NCBI RefSeq assembly: GCF_964204645.1
Contig: NC_134029.1
Coordinates: 6,838,001-6,902,000, forward strand
Length of the DNA: 64,000 nt
Origin: Tubulanus polymorphus
Taxonomy: Eukaryota > Nemertea > Palaeonemertea > Tubulaniformes > Tubulanidae
Direction: 5' to 3'
Shown: positions 3,921 to 54,273 of the stretch, one piece after another
Layout: every line of letters begins with the position of its first letter
How positions within the stretch are numbered: the first letter of the stretch is position 1
Position numbers and translations under genes: made by a program
Notes under the pieces: model-generated
What the model was told of the DNA's origin: nothing
The model's database searches: none
What the model saw: only the letters and a program-made list of their open reading frames with translations

Positions 3921-4465
3921 TAAGTGTAAATAAGTAAATTATCTCCTTCATTATTTGTGTACATGTACAATGTTTAAGAGATAACTGCAGAAGAAAAGAA
4001 GTTGAAAATATTTCGAGAATTTTGAAAAATTGATTGCCCCAGTGGTAAAGTAAAGCTGCGCATTTTTCTCAGGCAATAACAAATATCCGTAGTTTATTGC
4101 ATTTCTCACTTAAAACCTTTTTACAACGATGTTTATTTTCTATATTTCTTTCAACAAAAGGTGTTTATGTTCATGTTCTTTGTCATGTATCTCTTGCTTC
4201 TAAAGTCTCATATGGATGTGGAAATTATTTTCGATCAGAAAATTTTTTTACTTTTTACTATATATCTCAAAACCTGTAGATTCCAAAACTATACTGAAGT
4301 CATTTAAGATGAACTAATGCAACAGATAAGATTATGGTATTTTATTTTTTTTTTAATGGGTGCGAAAATTGTGGGATAATTGATTCTTAGTAAACTGTTT
4401 ATTAGCTTGCGTGATAAAATCATGATCGAACGGTCTTACCCTAAAGAACCAAGGTGTAATCATGT

Positions 4466-43085: not shown

Positions 43086-43438
43086 ATGGTAATGCGGCTG
43101 TCATCTGGATAAAAAAATTCAGTTCAGGGAAAATATTTTTTGTCTTCTGTAAATTAATCAACTGTGATGTTGTAAATAGATACGCATCATGTTTGTTGTT
43201 CACTGAAAAATGGGGAAATATTTTCGAGATGGTCGCGTACATTTTTAACAATATGGCCGATGATTCGAAGTATGATTAGCATCACTGGGAAATTATATAT
43301 ATTTAATGTGTCTTCCTTCCGATCCCATCATTTTTGTTCTATCCCGATGTATTGTACTGTGGAACCTTGGTAAGACAAAACAGTTAACCTCGATTAAGTC
43401 ATCATCATATAAGGTATAACAATCTTCCAGTCATATAA

Positions 43439-43657: not shown

Positions 43658-45704
43658 TAATGTAGAAAATTTGGCTCATTACCGTTGTCTTTGCCACAGT
43701 TCAAATAGGTTCCACCGTATATCTCAAGCTGTCCTTTAACCTTTCATCTTTTCTGCCTATTTCTTATTTTCTTCTTTGCCCTACTGTCCTACTCGTCTTC
43801 ACTTCAAAGTCTTATACAATCATCACCTAGATAAAGTCTAATCCATGATTTATTTGTATGTTACGAGATGCTTTGATGTACGCAGAAAAAATGAGATACG
43901 AGTCAATACTCTGATTAGGCTTCATATCACAAGAATTGTAGTGTCATAGTTTACAATAGTATTATTAAGCACCAGTATTATAGTTAAAAATGAATGTTAA
44001 GCCGCTGTTGTTGCTTGGAGATAGTTGATATTTTTAGATAGGAAAGCCCTGTCTATACTAGATGAAAAGCTCAGTTTCACTTGAACTATGAATTAGCGTT
44101 ATGAAAAGTTTTGGAATATCTATTAGTATCCGAAAATCCGAATTAAGCGAGTTCTACTGTGGATGCAAGTATATACAGTGAAACCTCGTTTCAATGAACT
44201 TCAAGGGGCCAGAAAATATGTTACTGACAACCGATCCATCCGTAATGAAATTATTGAAATTTTCCTGTGTGGGGCGAAATTCTAGGTTTTAAAGGTTATA
44301 TTGAAGTTTGTGACCGAGAGGTTCCTCGGCCGTGTATTGTATGCAAAAAACCATGATTACAAATGATAAGACCACCCAACCGTGCTCTAGTATAGATAAG
44401 GCTTTATATATACCAGTATAAACACTTATGCGAGTCAATGCAGTGAAATAATAGTTGTGTTCTAGTATGAATATATCATTCCAGCCAAGCACAGAGCGAT
44501 AAGATAAAGGCCACTAGCGGAGATTAGCAACTCAATTCAATTATTGATTCTTCCTGTGTTGCGGTGGAGACGGCTTTCATGAGCTTTTTAGAAGTGCCTT
44601 AAGACAAGAAATGACGATCAATTAGTGCCTGTGTCACGTTATGAAATTAAATTCCAAATTATTGCGATAAAATCTGATGATTATGGCTTTCTCATCATTG
44701 TGATTGAAGCAGTGGTCTTCAAATATTTTTTTATAAATATTCTAGTCTATGAATACGTATACTATTAAATTTTTATTTTCATTGATTTTAGATTGCAATA
44801 AACATAAGATATATGTATTTCAGTTTGAAATACTTATTCAAACGTTAGTGCTTTTATTCCCATGCAGTGGGTTTCTAAGACTCAAGGTCTATTCTGGCCC
44901 CACCTTGGGATTCTCACTCATTTGACATGGAAGTGGATGCTCATCACTACAGCTAAAATAATACAGTGGAACCTCTGGATATAAAACAAGCTATCAGATT
45001 CTAAGGTCCTCACTGTAACCAGTAATCAACAGTAGATAAGGAACGAATGGTCACGCCGTCCTGCAACCCTTATACACGTTTTAAAGCATTGATAGACTTG
45101 TCAGCCCATTCCTTCTTTATATACCCCGCCTTACACCTCCTATAAATGACCCCTTTTAGAAAACCAATCAATACAGCCCACTATTAACAGAATGTAAATA
45201 AGCAAGAAGAATCTTTTTATCAGCAACTTATTATTGTTGTTCATATATTACGTAGATCCTCATGGTTACAATGGCTCTATTTTAAAATAATTTAAGAAAT
45301 GAGTCCTTCCTACATATTCAAAAACATTGATCTGCATCTTGACACATTACCAACGAAACTACGATTTCGCCATATTTTTGAAAACAAAGTTTTTAAAAAC
45401 TTTGTAAATAATGTATTGCATGATCGAAAGCGATCTTCAAGTTTAACGTGTTATGTTTGTACACGTTTTCTCAAAATGAGTCAAAAACATTCAAAATTCA
45501 AATGCCCCAGAGTTTACAATGCAGATATATTTCATAATACGTAAAGCCTAACGTTGTAAGTACCAGTATGTTAATACAGAAGTGAAATGGTTTGTCATGA
45601 TCTCGTAAGCGTGGACACGCAATGACTATAAAAATGACTACGGCACAAAAATAATCCAATAATTTCATAACAACCTCGTTAATAATATACCGGGTATTTA
45701 ACTT

Positions 45705-45816
45705 AACCTCGCCTAACTCGGACAACTACAAAATTATTTTCTGATTTCCTCACGTATTTTTTCCGATCGTCAACTCGGCCTTCACTGACCAATCCGAGTT
45801 ACCGGTAGGTGAGGTT
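45705..45816. mobile_element. Degenerate pogo/mariner-like MITE
   Basis: AACCTCGCCTAACTCGGACA at the left and a diverged inverse (CCGAGTTACCGG...GTGAGGTT) at the right. Its left end is the same as that of the better-preserved copy at 54797-55044. Confidence 0.5.
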
Positions 45817-46056
45817 TATCGTACATCATATCATTTTTAAACCTGAGCAAGTTAATAATAATGGTAATGATAATAATAATCGGAATGGCTGTAAAATCTC
45901 CGAATGATCTGGTATTGAGTCTGTCGATTGCATATTGAGTTAAGTATCGTAGTGAAGCGAATATTCTACAGGAATGATTAAAACAGCTGTATGGGTTAAA
46001 TACACGCACTGGCTGAGACAGCGAGTTCCGTTTAGGTAGATATGTTTTGTATTTGA

Positions 46057-49000
46057 TCAACTACTTCTCTCCGGAACGTGTTCATAAGTGTAGGTATCCT
46101 AGAATTAAAAAGATACATTAGTACATACAGTATGCTTCGATGAATGATTTAGTTAAACTCATGCTTCGACATAATCTCTGGCGAGAACATTCTCTCTTAG
46201 AGGGCAGTGAAATTTCCAAATAACCAAAATGCTACACCCATGTGTCCAGAACTGCATACATCAGATAAAACTGTTGACATTATACCATAAGCATCACATC
46301 AAATAATGCCGACAGAAAATATGCTACTATCGTTTTAAGCCTAACCGGGAGTGACTGCATTAACCAAGATCACAAGACTAAATCCGAGACGGATAGTACT
46401 TTATCAGTGAACTTGTTAATTAGTTAACCTTTAAAATTCTATCCGTCTTGTTGTATTCATTCTACATCAAGTTAACACCTCTACGAATCTTTTCAAGATC
46501 ACTACGTTGCTTAGACCCCAGCTAAATTGCAAACAAAGCTTGTGGCAGAATTCCAACTTACCTTGCCACCCATATTTTCTGGTAGTTGGGCTGCATCCAC
46601 AAACTCGGTGACTTTACTTTTTCCGACCATGTGAACATATTTCCTCACCTCCGCGCTCATCAGATTTTTTAGAACATTCCAGGCGGCTGTGCGTAAAAAA
46701 TGAGTCGTATAGAGTTATACTCTTGAGAATCCATGAATTCTTCTTAGATAACGAAATCAAGCGTCATATTTACCGTTGAGAATCCAGGCCATTTCAAAAA
46801 TGAGCAAGTAAGCTGAAAAATTTATACCAGAATAGTATATGTGAAAAATGTAAGTTTTGAACAAATATAATGAAATAATTTATATCCAAATCATATGCAA
46901 ATTTCTTTCATATATTATATGAAAGTAATATACCTGTATTAGGAAAATAATCAGTGGCACAGGCCAATAGATACTTGAAAAAGTCCATATCCTGAAATAA
47001 AAGATTCATTTGCAATATGATTTGGGAGTTTCATAAAGTACATTGAGCAAGAAGCCAAATATTTCTCTTCTGGTATAGCCTATATATTCATACGTACATG
47101 TCTTGAAAAGAAATAAGTTAAATTTGATGAATGAAAAAATGTTAACGTACCAGGCCCATCAAACCAACACCGGACATGTCGAAAATGAGTACCATCTTTT
47201 TGTCGAGATTATTTTTGAAATGTTTCTCAAACATGTAAGCGATGTACTTTTTAATCGTTTCGGAGCTTTTGATTTCTCTAAACTTGAAAAAAACTGAAAT
47301 GGAGTGCATTAGTGATCAACAACTACCGGTACGCTATCCTAGAATCTCTGGGAAAACTGGAAATTTTTGTTGTTGTTTCGAACACCAAACACTTACACAG
47401 ATCAACGTCATTCTTGTCTTTACCGTGAAAGTAAATATTGCCTTTTTCTAGAATTTCTTTTTCAAAGCAATCTTCTTTCAGATCTATAGAATAAATTCAC
47501 GCATATAAGAGTAATTGACAGCATTTTATGCGACGGATTTCAGGGTTCATAGAAAATTGAATAGAATGACTTTGAATACCGGTACGGTATATTTCAATTG
47601 AAGACCTTTACAACATTGCATACAACACTGTCGTTAAGAATGCACACAAGAAATCCTTATATCATCTTTTTTGGACAAATTAAAAAAAATTCAACTGATT
47701 TTCACTGAGTCCATCTAATTTCAAACACTTTCCTTGCTGGAACACTTACAATGCATGAAAAGAATGAAATTTCTTTTCACTCACTGACCATTTAATCCGA
47801 TACTTTTTCTCCACTTGAATGACACATCTAGCATATCTATCGTTTTCTTCACATCTCCTTTCAGAAACTTGAGAAACGCGTGCGTAAATTCATCATTCGT
47901 GTTCAACTTCTCTATATCTCTTTCATCGTAGTCTTCGGTGTTACCTGTAAACGATTAGCACAGCAACGAAATTATGTCACGCTGACATCCTACATGTAAC
48001 CTTGGATCGCAGGGGGATGAAGATTTCTCATCGGTAAACACTAAATTAACAATCTGTTTCTTGTTTTACTTGCCTCCATATGTTTCTTTAAAGGCAGTTC
48101 TCACTTCGGGAATAGTGTCTGTGTAATCCTATAGAAAGACATTACATTTTAGCGCTTTAGAATTAATGAATAGGTCGAGAGTGTACTGCATGGTGTCTGA
48201 ATACCACCAATCGATAAACCAAATGCTATATTAGCTGGCGGGACGGGTCGCCTCTATTGAGCTTCATTTCGTGTATGATATTAATGATGATGATAGGGCT
48301 AGACAAAGGTTGTTAGGCGGAGGCACTAAACAGCAGGTAAAGGGTAATACTTTTTAGCTTCTGAATGAATTCTGAGGCGACTAGTATAGTATAAGCCTAA
48401 GGACTATGTTATGAGATTCAAAAAATTACTATAACTTTAACAAGCTGTACTGTCATACTACATTTTTTTAATCATAGTAACCAAAATTTCTAATGTCTAT
48501 TTATTAATTGATGAGACCTGTTTTTCTGGGATATTTTGCTTACTTTTTGGGGCACATACCTCATTTATGTCTTAACAGAATGCCAAAAATCGCGGACAAC
48601 AACAGAATATCCGATATATTTCCAGTTCTGTACCAATTAGATGGATTGGCAAAAAGACTCCTTAAGTCCAATTGAATGAGAGAGAAAATCCTCCATTTTG
48701 TCAAATTTCTAATTTTTACATTGTCACCATGCCTACGAAATGAAGTTATTTTTCTTGTGGGGTCTCAACAACTAAATCAGGGTGGCGTAGGCATGGTAAC
48801 AATGTTCAAATCCAAGAAATTTGACAAAATGGAGGATTTTGTCTCTCATTCAACTGGACTTAAGGAGTCTTTTTGCCAATCCATCTAATTGGTACAGAAC
48901 TGGAAATATATCGGATATTCAGTTGTTGTCCGCGATTTTTGGCATTCTGTTAAGACATAAATGAGGTATGTACCCCAAAAAGTAAGCAAAATATCCCAGA

Positions 49001-49230
49001 AAAACAGGTCTCATCAATTAATTAATAGACATTAGCCACTGGTGCCTTTACATGTTTGTTACATTTAGTAAATGTAAATTTTGGTTAAATAGGGCCTAAG
49101 GCTTTTAAGGCTAATAAAAAGCGACTAAAAAACCACAATATTTACAAATAGTTCATGCCGTCGTGGTAGAAAAGACCCTAATTTTCAGTATAAATGTTAA
49201 ATGTAATTCATATTTGAAAAAACTTGCCAT
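46057..49230 (-). CDS. MOSPD2: MOSPD2-like CRAL-TRIO protein lacking the MSP domain
   Basis: CRAL-TRIO (Sec14-type) lipid-binding fold; human MOSPD2 is an ER-anchored tether with CRAL-TRIO, MSP and a TM tail. Exons, 5' to 3': tentative ATG exon ending 49228, then 48128-48074, 47944-47789, 47483-47397, 47293-47151, 46991-46934, 46812-46774, 46686-46562, 46098-46057, about 235 residues in all. MOSPD2-like landmarks: DYDERDIEKL, DMLDVSFKWRKSIGLNDL, NIYFHGKDKND, VLIFDMSGVG, DMDFFKYLL, LIFEMAWILNAAWNVLKN and LPENMGGKDTYTY. The frame then stops, so MSP and TM parts are absent. The 48074 donor is GC (GGAG then GCAAGT) and the first exon would also use a GC donor; the first exon is the weakest part. 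It is head-to-head with FANCB, as in human, which supports orthology. Confidence 0.8.
48490..49035. repeat. 546-bp fold-back repeat in the MOSPD2-like first intron
   Basis: The left arm begins CTAATGTCTATTTATTAATT and the right arm ends AATTAATTAATAGACATTAG. The two arms, about 235 bases each, match nearly base for base (for example GGATTGGCAAAAAGACTCCT and its complement) around a central unpaired part of about 75 bases. The arms carry few mismatches, so the duplication is young or conserved by conversion. There is no target duplication and no protein. Confidence 0.92.
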
Positions 49231-49383
49231 GTTGAGAGAAATAGCCAGACAACGACGCGGCAGCTAGCAGTAGGTTTTTGGTTTTTGACACTTCCTGGCC
49301 AGTTGGTTATGTTACCTGGCTTGTGATTGGCTTAAAAGCCGCAATATTACTATTCGACTGTTTCATTGGCTCATTAATCCAAG
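49231..49383. promoter_or_regulatory. Shared bidirectional promoter, FANCB / MOSPD2-like
   Basis: The two predicted start codons, on opposite strands, are only about 153 bases apart. The interval contains two inverted CCAAT boxes (ATTGG at 49326-49330 and 49365-49369) about 39 bases apart and no TATA box, which is the usual architecture of divergent housekeeping promoters bound by NF-Y. Promoter function is inferred. Confidence 0.55.
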
Positions 49384-52300
49384 ATGTCCGCGCCCATGAG
49401 CGGTAAGTTTGGATTTTTTTGCTAGTCATTTCTTCGGGATTTCCTTTTAAACCAGCCAGCAACGAGTCAAAAGCTCCCGTCTCCGTTTACAAATCTGATC
49501 ACAGGAGATTGGCACAGGGGTCTGATGCAGATTTATTTTAATCCTAGGCTTACTGTCCGCTTTCCTTTTCTTGTAAAAAATAGCCTAAAATTTAAAACAC
49601 TCTGATTTTAGACCCGTGCCTAGCTATTTACCCCTAATCAAAGAATTGTTAAAAGTCTCCTTTTACTTTAAAAATAAAAATAGACATTAGGGCCTATTTG
49701 TTCGAAAATACAAGAAGGAGAGTGAGAAAGAGACTGTTGACTGATTTATTTTCAGGTGTTTGTCAGTCTATAATCGGAATGACTACCGCCGCCAGTAGAA
49801 CTCTGCTTGTTCATCGCGGTGAAGTCGTAGCCATCGATGTTTGTCCCGTCGAACGAAAACTGAAAGGGACCTGGCTGAAATACGACGTAGAGAAACACGA
49901 ATGGAAACGAGTTTGCGATCGCGTTGTCGGTTTGCCATCCCGAGCTAAACAAGATACTCAGTACTATATTCTCACGACGAACACTATACTGGAATCATCG
50001 ACTGGATTACGATTGCCGACTATATTGCTTACGGAACAACCGAAGAATTTAGAATTCAGTTTTGGATCGGCTATAAACTTTCAAGTTATTTCCGTCACTT
50101 CGCGGAGAAATTTTATCGAATTCGGCGAGTTTTTCGCCAAGAACAATAGCAACATAAACCCGCTGGATATGAAGTATTATATACTGGATGGGCCTAAAGT
50201 GCTGTTCGCTTCGGGGCATACGGTTTATTTGGCTCAAAGCGATGCGAAAAAAACGGGGAAATTTGTGGCGAACTTTCGAAAGATTTCATCCGACGTCGGC
50301 AAACTGAAGAACATCGATTATCTTTGGTGCGCGTCCGAGACGCACGAAAAAATTCGACTGCTTTGCAGCGGTCAACTTGTCACCGATCCGTCGTCGCATA
50401 AATCGTTATTAGTGACTCTAACTTGCGGTGAAAAGGCCGGAGAATTCACCTGTGTTACGACTGATGGCAATAGGGTGCTACAACACATATATGCTGGTAT
50501 TGTTTCTTGTCTACATGTATCAATGGCTCAAAGTAGCGATCGCTTTTCGGCAACTGTACTGACGAACAAAGGACAACTGTTAAATTTTGATAACGGAAAA
50601 CTTGTTACTTTCAAAAATGTTGATATTTTCACTGGAAAATGTCATATCAATCATCTAGAGACCTATGATGAAAGCTATTTTGTCATACATGATTCTAAAC
50701 AGAATGTGGGTCTATTTGATGTCAGTAGCCTGCAGAAGGTATAGCTTAAGATTTAACATTTATAAAATCAGTCACCTCTTCGTAATGTATTTGTACACAA
50801 TTAAGTGGTTCCTAGAAATACCAACTTTGGGACCCATTTCCGCAGTTGTGAGATTTGTCTTGAATTACCCGGTAGTTGATTTGAGCTTAAAGTCACAACT
50901 GTGGAACTGGGGGCAAGTAAATCTGTAAATTGTTATAACCATTCAAACTTCGGATTGAATCATTAGTTTACATTGGATATTTGCATCCATTTCTAGAGCA
51001 TCGTAGGATGGCAACCTGATTCTTATGAACACATGATAATCGGTGATTTCCTTCGACTGGGAAGTGATCAACTACTGCTATGTTCAACTGATGAAGAATC
51101 AGATGATGGGAGTATTGTATTCAACAAATTCATTTTAACCGATCTTGGACGCTTTCATATAAGTTCCCAGGTAAATTCATATTCATGTGGAATAACTTCC
51201 ACCACAGCCGACTAACAATTTCATCATAAAATGTATTTTCAATGTACATGTGTTGGATTTGAAGGCCGACACTGCTGCAGAACAGGATTCAGTAGATGAG
51301 GGAACGCATAAAGCTGTTTCTGCATTACAAGCTCGTCAGCAGGTACCATATTACATGACTTTTGATCTCTCAGTATTTCCTTACAAAGATTTGGCCAGCA
51401 ACCAAGTCAATAATCTGATCCTGGTCAGAAAACTGTTATTATGTTAACTCTGTTAATAGGTTGGGTTGAGATCTTTGAATGAGACGGAGAAATTGTGTCA
51501 GGAAAAACTTTCAGTTATCTACAAAACTTGCAAAAACATGCACAAAATGGTCCTTGGGGAAGAATTCATGGAAAAGGTCAGACCTGTGTTCATCAATAAT
51601 GTTGTTCAAAGTCATCCTCGTCGATTTAGCGAAGCAAAAATGTTTGTTTTGTTCTTGTGATTTCCAGGGTGCTACATTGGTTATTTTGGACTCTTGTCAG
51701 AAGATAATTAAGGATAAGTGGATAATAATTCTTGATATACAAAATCAGTCAAGCGGGTAAAGATTACTTGATACGCATATCATCTCAGTGAAACTTGGTT
51801 AACTCATCCTCATCAAATAAGTGGTCACATCCTTTAAGCTATCACTATTTTTTAGTTTCAATTTGTGTTCCAATTCAATTTTACTAATTGTAAGTTGTCA
51901 TTTGGATAGGGCATCAACATAATGACGGTCCCAATTGTGATGACAAGTTTGACTGTATTAGTTACTTGATCGTAAAGTACTCACCTTATTATCGTCCTCA
52001 GTGTCCATAGTTCCTATACTTGTGTACACGTATGCCGTAGGTCCTGCTAAAACGAAAATCAATTTTTCTTTTTACTTCTTTTGTGCATAAAATAGCCCAA
52101 AACTCTTATCTGAAATGATAAACTAGCTATCGTTATCTGTAAAAACAAAAATATTCCACAGACCTTCGATTTTTGCACATCCTTGAACTACAAACTGAAG
52201 TGGTATAACTGTATACGCATGTGCTTACTTCAGTACAGATAATGACAAACTGCTTTTCAACGAGGAAGTCAAATTGCAATGTGACAATGAAAAAAATTGA

Positions 52301-54273
52301 ATACTGGTATATACATACTTTTCTACCAATTCTAGCTCTGAAGCCCTTATTGCTGTCTGAAGTCAATTTGATGAATTTTTGTCTATTTTACAACCATAAG
52401 TGATGATTCAGCCACTGTTAGAGTGCTATAGTAGTACTTAAAGTCTGTATTATGTAGCGGGGTCTGTACCATGTGTTGTTTTATTTGATCTCTATCGGAC
52501 ATCTGTCGTTTTAAAACGCGAGTTTAAATCTAAACGCATAGGGCAGGCATATTGATTGATGTTTACATATGTATTTCTGTCAGTTTGATAGAATTGTAAT
52601 TGGAAAACCTATTTTCATTACGCATGAATTACGTACTACTCGCTTTTTGATGTTTTCCAATTCAAAAGAAATCAACTGGTATTGAAATGGTATTTAGATT
52701 GGGATTTTTAGTTTGCGGAGTGTTTTTGAAACAAAATTCATGCCCTCTTTTCCGATGTTTTACAGAACTGTCAGGAGTCTGAGCGTTTCGCTTGTACCAA
52801 ATCAAAGATCGGAGATAGAATCTTATTGCACAAACACCGAACAGACAGCTATGACCACTTCATATTCAGTACCAGATGCTACAGATCCAAACTATCAACC
52901 TTCAAAGAAACTTAAAACTATGACCGAAACTACAAAACGATCTTCAGACACTGTGAAAGTTGGTGAAATGACTACCGTTGTTTGTGTATCTGATTTGCCT
53001 AGTTTTATCGGTTCCGATTCAGTAAATTGTGATTTACTACTTGCGTGGACAAATGACTGCACAAATATAGCTCATAGCTCGATAGCTGGGAATGTTTGTA
53101 TCAGTGTTTCGGATATCGCGGACGAGAAAATGTTTGTTGATGTTTCACAAAAATTGATAGGTAACAAACTTGCTTCGTCCAGAACCAAATGAATACCTTA
53201 AAATACTTTCATAAAATATCAGTAAGGCTCATTCATCTACAAAGGTCAATTTGATATATATTTCATAAAAGGATTTGAAATACAGTCATGACAAAATCTG
53301 TGGTAAATTCAAGTTACAGCAAAATTGCGATATTCACCCATCATTGACTGATGCCAATAGGATTTTTGACGTACGTGTGTACATATCATTCTTTCTTCAC
53401 ACATTAGGACGAAGGAACATAGAAGCGTTAGATGCTGTGCAGATGTGCGTAACGGTCGAAGTCTCATCGACATTCACCCCCATTCAGGGCATCTCGAAAA
53501 TATCAACTCAGGACATGAATATGGTTTACAAATATCAGGAACAATGCTACGTTTATGAGAGTAAACCGGGATTAGAACTTTCACGCGTTAAAATCATCTC
53601 ATATTCGAAGCAAGCACTAGAATTATGTATTTATGTCTGGTTAGTTCAAATATGCTCAGTTATATAGACAGTAAAGCCTGTTTCAGCCCGACCTTTATGG
53701 AGCATGGATTTTTGTCTGCCCTAAAGTGAAAATGCGACTTGAGGAACAAATCTAATTGCAAATACTGGTATTGAAAATAGTCCAAAATACTATGCAGAAA
53801 TTTGGCTTTAAAAATCCAACTAAAGCAGGCTTGACTGTACAATTAACAGAAATCGAAACACAATACATCATTGACATTTACATTTCTTCCATTACAGGAA
53901 TTTACAACAGTTGACAGTCATGGTGCATTCGCTGTATAAATTTCTACCGGATAGTGTTACGATTTCGCAGAAACAATCTCCTGACCTACTGAAAAACACA
54001 GTTGAAGCAATCAGTCGGGAAGCCTCATTATTCAAGAAACTGTTGGAAAAAAATCTATCCGATCAAAACCGGCGTCACGAATCGATGGAGGTCGATGAGG
54101 AAGTAGCTGGCGATATCGTTTCGAAAACTCGAGTAGAATTCGAGAAACGGCGAAGTATGGTGAATGAAAATCGTGGCGTGTTGGAATTGAATTCGACAAA
54201 TGAAATGAACGATTATCTAAGACAAGCACAATTAGAAACGGACTCTAGTTTATCACTGCTTCTGAAGCAGTAG
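49384..54273 (+). CDS. FANCB: Fanconi anaemia group B protein homologue
   Basis: Subunit of the Fanconi core ubiquitin-ligase complex (with FANCL and FAAP100) acting in interstrand-crosslink repair. Exons: 49384-49402, 49756-50738, 50997-51170, 51265-51342, 51460-51576, about 52698-53160, about 53272-53639, 53898-54273. Their sum is close to 859 codons, the human length. Landmarks against human: LLVHRGEV, ILDGPKVLF, VLTNKGQLLNFDNGK, IIGDFLRLGSDQLLL, FILTDLGRFHIS, FYRTVRSLSVS, CYVYESKPG and LTVMVHSLYKFLP. Exons 1-5 and the join 53639/53898 are phase-consistent. The start of exon 6 (52698 or 52712) and the 53160/53272 join do not resolve cleanly in frame, so a small exon or other splice is missing there. 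Intron 2 holds a short MITE. The N-terminal exon encodes only MSAPMSG. Confidence 0.85.
50826..50917. mobile_element. Short inverted-repeat MITE, ACTGTGGAACTGGG family, copy 2
   Basis: CCCATTTCCGCAGTTGTGA and TCACAACTGTGGAACTGGG face each other in FANCB intron 2. It is the same family as 4466-4575. Confidence 0.65.

Follow-up and report, generated by a model that had tools for sequence, protein, structure and literature searches.

The FANCB gene of Tubulanus polymorphus lies head to head with a gene whose predicted product retains only the CRAL-TRIO part of MOSPD2, and the elements between the two start codons stand in the same order as those upstream of a complete MOSPD2 gene on the same contig. 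On balance we favour an account in which FANCB and MOSPD2 would have formed an ancestral pair, MOSPD2 would have been duplicated together with its promoter, and the copy beside FANCB, here called W, would have been truncated and would share a divergent promoter with FANCB. Within this account the gene order, the gap, the truncation of the W model, the paralogy and the common element order are observed.

The FANCB gene occupies 49384-54273 on the plus strand, with its start codon at 49384. The model joins exons 1-5 (49384-49402, 49756-50738, 50997-51170, 51265-51342, and 51460-51576) and 6-9 (51668-51756, 52766-53160, 53272-53639, and 53898-54273) by GT-AG introns, and an AATAAA follows the stop codon 61 nt downstream. 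Using phmmer, the first 618 residues of the model were found to match human FANCB in the PDB (7kzp_B) with E=1.5e-9, residues 70-453 aligning with residues 93-459 of 7kzp_B. The same 618 residues as genome query identified this as the sole FANCB locus found, with 6/6 matches at E up to 0.1 falling in this gene (best five candidates scored). The splice phases of exons 7 (52766-53160) and 8 (53272-53639) clash, which we counted against our preferred explanation. The last 247 aa, encoded after this clash, had no significant match in the PDB, and their best blastp hit to a provisional human sequence (E=0.049) was not colinear. Judged by its protein match, the predicted gene is a genuine FANCB.

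W lies on the minus strand at 46057-49230, with its start codon at 49230. Its model has nine coding exons (exons 1-5: 49230-49228, 48128-48074, 47944-47789, 47483-47397, and 47293-47151; exons 6-9: 46991-46934, 46812-46774, 46686-46562, and 46098-46057) and encodes a protein of 235 aa that contains a CRAL-TRIO domain (Pfam CRAL_TRIO PF00650, E=2.6e-23) and stops just after it. The last exon (46057-46098, minus strand) encodes DTYTYEHVPERSS followed by a stop and has as its homologue in full-length MOSPD2 the linker exon (DSFEYKYTPSPSPEN...), in which the reading frame is open where W has its stop. W shares 35% identity over 231 aa with a provisional human MOSPD2 sequence (33.6% in another comparison). 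These models bear out the original prediction that FANCB on the plus strand and a MOSPD2-like gene on the minus strand start about 153 bp apart, including the strands, the starts, and the outer ends at 46057 and 54273.

MOSPD2 combines a CRAL-TRIO domain, an MSP (Motile_Sperm) domain and a membrane anchor, and is an ER tether of the VAP family. W resembles it in the CRAL-TRIO region and, by comparison with the full-length copy described below (FL), in its introns, but the W model has neither the MSP domain nor the anchor. Pfam detected no MSP domain in the 235-aa model, and tblastn searches of the window, i.e., the whole 64-kb stretch of DNA analysed, with provisional VAPA and MOSPD2 sequences and the MSP exons of FL gave nothing better than E=0.23 for MSP. 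The highest 19-residue Kyte-Doolittle hydropathy is 1.4 in W vs 2.5 in the C-terminal anchor exon of FL; no C-terminal transmembrane anchor was found in the model, which ends DTYTYEHVPERSS, and no convincing anchor within the window. Neither AATAAA nor ATTAAA occurs in the 1056 nt downstream of the W stop codon. On this domain content we classify W as a member of the MOSPD2 family, a CRAL-TRIO-only paralogue without the ER-tether half. Its product would be a soluble lipid-binding protein lacking ER anchoring and FFAT binding.

Two candidates for the missing half were considered and set aside. A match to the FL anchor peptide at 47479-47529 on the plus strand (E=0.029, a score reached in 0/200 simulated windows) was rejected because it is antisense inside W and contains two stops. 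A weak pair on the minus strand, 43391-43326 and 43324-43211, resembles the MSP and anchor exons of FL (E=0.23 and 0.22, respectively) and was judged probably to be due to chance or repeat-derived. Its single scores were reached in 4/200 and 10/200 Markov-simulated windows, and inspection by eye showed that the conserved core KTTAPEKY is missing. None of the 200 simulated windows contained a neighbouring pair with at least 20 bits each within 1500 nt, and a decayed remnant is a possible reading of 43391-43211.

The complete MOSPD2 gene, FL, is located 980 kb from W on the same contig and carries both MSP exons and a hydrophobic C-terminal stretch (19-residue maximum 2.5). A genome search with the W protein at a threshold of E=1 recovered two loci through nine matches, six of them in W and three in FL. 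The two proteins are 42.1% identical (99/235), and 7/8 introns of W are found at the same place and in the same phase in FL, among them the intron that follows the first codons and the intron at MGG(K/T)|D. Based on these alignments we regard W and FL as paralogues. The orthology that had been proposed for both neighbours was upheld in part: FANCB is genuine (E=1.5e-9) and its neighbour belongs to the MOSPD2 family, but this neighbour is a CRAL-TRIO-only paralogue, and we rejected W, given FL elsewhere on the contig, as the ordinary MOSPD2 orthologue of the genome. A PF00650 family search of the genome returned 14 matches, FL among them, and none of W's own exons, which indicates that genes such as W escape family searches run one exon at a time. 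The genome search for MSP domains may have missed some loci too.

In an alternative account, MOSPD2 may have been duplicated in tandem before the split between vertebrates and invertebrates, with vertebrates keeping the full-length gene beside FANCB and the Tubulanus line keeping the short one while the long one moved. W would then not be a recent truncation, although the pairing would still be ancient. We compared the three topologies of W, FL, and human MOSPD2, the last with a provisional sequence. The W+human topology fitted worst (excluded by the AU test with p=0.024, not excluded by KH with 0.093 and SH with 0.132). An early duplication would agree with the pairing of FL and human in 1415/2000 resamplings of a four-point distance test with CSR1, with an AU p of 0.32 that does not exclude FL+human, and with the divergence of W, which is 42.1% identical to FL and 33.6% identical to the provisional human sequence. 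In contrast, maximum likelihood mildly prefers W+FL (bootstrap 61, RELL 0.66, AU p=0.715), and we consider so early a duplication possible, though unlikely. The seven common introns and the promoter order are compatible with either age of the duplication.

The presumed shared promoter is the 153-bp intergenic stretch at 49231-49383, measured between start codons and not between transcript starts. At 153 bp, FANCB and W form a head-to-head pair in the usual sense of starts less than 1 kb apart. The two inverted CCAAT boxes of the original prediction are present, both on the minus strand: a distal box (AGCCAATGA, 49363-49371, ATTGG at 49365) 12 bp short of the FANCB start codon, and a proximal box (AGCCAATCA, 49324-49332, ATTGG at 49326). 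Both match the NF-Y consensus RRCCAATSR on the minus strand. An ETS-type site (CAGGAAGT), one of four in the 64-kb window, follows at 49290-49297 on the same strand. The consensus RRCCAATSR occurs 13 times in the window, corresponding to 0.031 per 153 bp, and at least two sites fall together in 106 of the 63,847 overlapping 153-bp stretches. No TATAAA, GGGCGG, or AAGATGGC pattern was found in the 153 bp.

The W and FL promoters have the element order AGCCAAT - AGCCAAT - CMGGAAGT - ATG in common, which is a new observation. In 267.8 Mb this pattern, drawn up after both promoters had been seen, has two matches, at W and at FL, against a first-order Markov expectation of 0.036; read backwards, it has 0 matches in the same 267.8 Mb. 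A variant with the ETS site flipped has three matches elsewhere, showing that such CCAAT/ETS arrays are rare, not unique. The two promoters gave no blastn alignment (best E=0.05). We tentatively suggest that the conserved unit is the promoter rather than the partnership: the CCAAT-CCAAT-ETS cassette of an ancestral FANCB/MOSPD2 divergent pair would have been copied with MOSPD2 and kept its order though the flanks cannot be aligned, W, kept for the sake of FANCB, would have been free to lose its MSP/anchor half, and the freed full-length copy would have taken the original job.

In the account that we prefer, FANCB and MOSPD2 would already have stood closely head to head in the ancestor that T. 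polymorphus shares with vertebrates. MOSPD2 would then have been duplicated at the DNA level, and its upstream promoter elements, two CCAAT boxes and an ETS site that are each oriented along MOSPD2, would have been copied with it. In the copy left beside FANCB, a stop within the linker exon would have spared only the CRAL-TRIO domain; the other copy, still of full length, would be the gene now found on the same contig at a distance of 980 kb. The 153-bp interval is most likely one compact TATA-less divergent promoter, in which an NF-Y-like factor bound to the CCAAT pair, together with an ETS/GABP-like factor, would clear a stretch of nucleosomes and let polymerase start in both directions. The factors bound, co-expression, selection and the order of events are the interpreted parts of this account. 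Because the distal CCAAT box lies so close to its start codon, FANCB would have hardly any upstream region to itself on that side. We consider promoter sharing by FANCB and W plausible, as is the predicted selection on a shared FANCB/MOSPD2 promoter; the proposed link of DNA repair to lipid binding would not be favoured by the loss of W's tether half. PMC3121118 reports an enrichment of NFY and GABPA sites in divergent promoters of human. The interval resembles divergent promoters of the compact TATA-less type that carry NF-Y and ETS/GABP sites: it has no TATAAA and holds a pair of CCAAT boxes and one ETS-type site within 153 bp. It differs in that all three are oriented with the MOSPD2-like gene.

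The pair might also have persisted by inertia, without selection, if few rearrangements hit the 153-bp gap and the promoter elements act on each gene independently. As a general argument, a break is unlikely to fall in a very short gap, and divergent pairs are common, making up 25% of neighbouring amphioxus genes in PMC6292497. The same study found that most of the 372 divergent promoters considered putatively ancestral did not survive in vertebrates (54.5% were lost in stem vertebrates), so that the keeping of such pairs is not automatic. The 12 bp between the distal box and the FANCB start codon also speak against inertia, which we find rather doubtful.

The divergent transcription of human FANCB and MOSPD2, also part of the original prediction, agrees with PMC2386062 and PMC3149625. 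Table 1 of PMC2386062 lists MOSPD2 as the bidirectional partner of human FANCB with 372 between the TSSs; its mouse row gives the partner only as AK035985, at 257, and does not name MOSPD2. In PMC3149625, FANCB alone among the FA core genes has slight bidirectional promoter activity, ascribed to the overlap with MOSPD2. PMC9957280 places both genes inside a block conserved across the 12 species compared and does not state their orientation there. The human pair at Xp22.2 is like the present one in both families, divergent orientation and short gap. Its partner, however, is the full-length MOSPD2 (according to PMC7610837 the sole VAP-family member with a CRAL-TRIO domain), whereas here it is a CRAL-TRIO-only paralogue and the full-length gene lies at a distance of 980 kb. 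PMC3149625 describes human FA core promoters as lacking obvious CCAAT boxes, so that the two boxes here may not be shared with human. Our literature search, in which sources were available in part, recognised no published account of the pair outside vertebrates.

That a MOSPD2-like copy landed head to head with FANCB by convergence or chance is conceivable, since duplication and relocation in the MOSPD2 family did happen in this line of descent. Assuming about 25,000 genes and two family members, we estimate such a landing at about 1 in 10,000, which makes chance adjacency very unlikely, and we give this reading hardly any weight. The ancestral FANCB/MOSPD2 pairing appears well supported.

When divergent pairs persist over hundreds of millions of years, the usual explanation is either shared regulation or a functional connection between the two genes. 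This locus allows these explanations to be told apart, because one partner lost half of its domains and its complete paralogue, located elsewhere, has the same promoter order. Should FANCB in other invertebrates also adjoin a MOSPD2, whether full or truncated, the promoter would be the thing retained. For annotation, the gene adjoining FANCB in such genomes need not be a functional MOSPD2. The FANCB/W locus suggests that an old shared switch can remain in place after its partner has given up the job it first had.

FANCB and W, a MOSPD2-like gene with CRAL-TRIO as its only recognised domain, lie head to head exactly where the original prediction had placed them (FANCB, 49384-54273, plus strand; W, 49230-46057, minus strand), with 153 bp between their start codons (49231..49383). 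FANCB has nine coding exons and GT-AG introns. Its first 618 residues matched human FANCB (7kzp_B) with E=1.5e-9, the remaining two matches listed at E up to 10 being weak and unrelated. When the 267.8-Mb assembly (77 contigs) was searched with these residues, all six matches at E up to 0.1 fell inside the FANCB gene. Identity to a provisional human FANCB sequence is 22% over a 475-column alignment. The last 247 residues gave no significant match in the PDB. Local alignment to the provisional human sequence produced nothing clear either (best E=0.049, out of colinear order), so their assignment is based on exon order. At the junction 53160/53272 the donor leaves phase 1 and the open frame of the next exon needs phase 0, which could equally be due to an overlooked short exon, a wrong base or damage.

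W encodes 235 residues in nine coding exons, the first holding nothing but the start codon and ending at a GC donor. In the gene model two of the eight introns carry such donors (GCAAGT, at 49227 and 48073 on the minus strand), which is unusual. A Pfam search of W returned CRAL-TRIO families only. W is 35% identical (81/231) to human MOSPD2, and identities to human in the MOSPD2 family are 34-42%, all human sequences being provisional. Low identities of this order, together with spliceosomal introns and the presence of an FA core gene, suggest that the animal is an invertebrate. Neither AATAAA nor ATTAAA occurs on the W strand within 1056 nt beyond the stop codon (45001-46056). Intron 1 holds an inverted repeat, 195 bp from the W start codon, with arms of 221 bp (48490-48710 and 48815-49035) that are 98% complementary and 104 bp apart; its RNA has a folding energy of -417 kcal/mol, versus -113 for shuffles, and it looks like a young fold-back element.

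A genome search with the W protein found two loci, W itself (6/9 matches) and C5:5909051-5910159 (3/9), on the contig of the window, which spans C5:6838001-6902000. An MSP-domain search of this genome gave two matches, one on C15 and one at C5:5911505. The second of the two W-matching loci is a full-length MOSPD2 (FL). Its start codon lies at C5:5907071, and it has exons for CRAL-TRIO, for the linker and for MSP, besides one that encodes a strongly hydrophobic stretch. Our model of FL runs from the start codon to the linker exon, the junctions beyond being partly solved. All seven introns of the modelled part match W in place and phase; an eighth W intron, between GLMGL and DMDFF, is peculiar to W compared with FL. 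The last W exon is the counterpart of the FL linker exon but stops after 13 residues. W is thus a truncated paralogue of MOSPD2, by these tests without the ER-tether part. Two weak adjoining similarities to the FL MSP and anchor exons, in the correct order, were seen at 43211-43391 (minus strand); they may be a decayed MSP/anchor remnant but are probably due to chance.

Identities over aligned positions are 99/235 for W and FL, 106/253 for FL and the provisional human MOSPD2 and 79/235 for W and human. The best tree of five sequences (W, FL, provisional human MOSPD2, CSR1 and SFH5) joined W and FL with a bootstrap of 61. In the AU test W+FL had p=0.715, FL+human 0.32 and W+human 0.024; the KH (0.093) and SH (0.132) tests did not reject W+human. 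A four-point distance test with CSR1 favoured FL+human in 1415 of 2000 resamplings, W+FL in 578 and W+human in 7. Of the three groupings, only the one that places W nearest to human MOSPD2 is disfavoured; the duplication could have happened within this lineage or earlier.

The two CCAAT boxes predicted between the FANCB and W starts are present, in the same orientation and with an ETS-type site; the gap contains no TATAAA. Read along W, AGCCAAT stands at -141 and -102 and CAGGAAGT at -67; read along FL, AGCCAAT stands at -99 and -68 and CCGGAAGT at -30, the spacings being 32 and 28 bp in W and 24 and 31 bp in FL. In the whole genome, AGCCAAT-N20-50-AGCCAAT-N20-50-CMGGAAGT matched twice, at the W and FL promoters, and never when read backwards. 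Since the pattern was designed after inspection of both promoters, the two matches are no test, and what is informative is the absence of a third. A first-order Markov model fitted to the window predicts 0.036 matches; with the ETS site flipped, three matches occur elsewhere in the genome, so the actual background amounts to a few matches per genome and exceeds the Markov figure. That such an array stands at the paralogue's promoter by coincidence is unlikely (about 1 in 10,000, an estimate that assumes some 25,000 promoters and ignores the post hoc choice of motif). Directly upstream of the FL CCAAT pair lies a palindrome, TGACGTCA (C5:5906953-5906960; 3953-3960 of the stretch L026), which we take to be CRE-like and which does not occur in the FANCB/W gap. 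On the opposite strand upstream of FL (C5:5893001-5908000) are repeated ORFs resembling, on visual inspection, a fatty-acid hydroxylase family, the closest ending about 2.6 kb from the FL start codon.

Most likely, the 153 bp would act as a single compact divergent promoter, in which NF-Y-like and ETS-like factors would serve both starts. We ascribe the CCAAT and ETS-type sites to these factors presumptively, from consensus sequences. The naming also leans on enrichment reported in PMC3121118. Within the human FA core set, PMC3149625 describes some reverse activity for the FANCB promoter fragment only and reports no obvious CCAAT boxes in the core promoters, which therefore lend no support to the elements themselves being ancient.

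The human FANCB/MOSPD2 pair appears in Table 1 of PMC2386062, where the mouse row gives the partner only as AK035985. For chicken and other vertebrates, PMC9957280 places MOSPD2 beside FANCB, within a block described there as conserved across 12 species. For amphioxus, PMC6292497 describes divergent promoters as shared by 25% of neighbouring genes and the majority of putatively ancestral ones as lost in vertebrates. Among the papers listed for FANCB together with MOSPD2, none could be recognised from its entry as an invertebrate study. The ancient FANCB-MOSPD2 pair originally proposed is thus borne out by half: the pairing with the MOSPD2 family holds, but the partner is a reduced paralogue, with full-length MOSPD2 elsewhere on C5. 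The best reading is an ancient FANCB/MOSPD2-family pair, from a comparison of this animal with vertebrates. Because the partner is a reduced paralogue, weight moves from DNA repair being linked to lipid binding towards a promoter kept in place.
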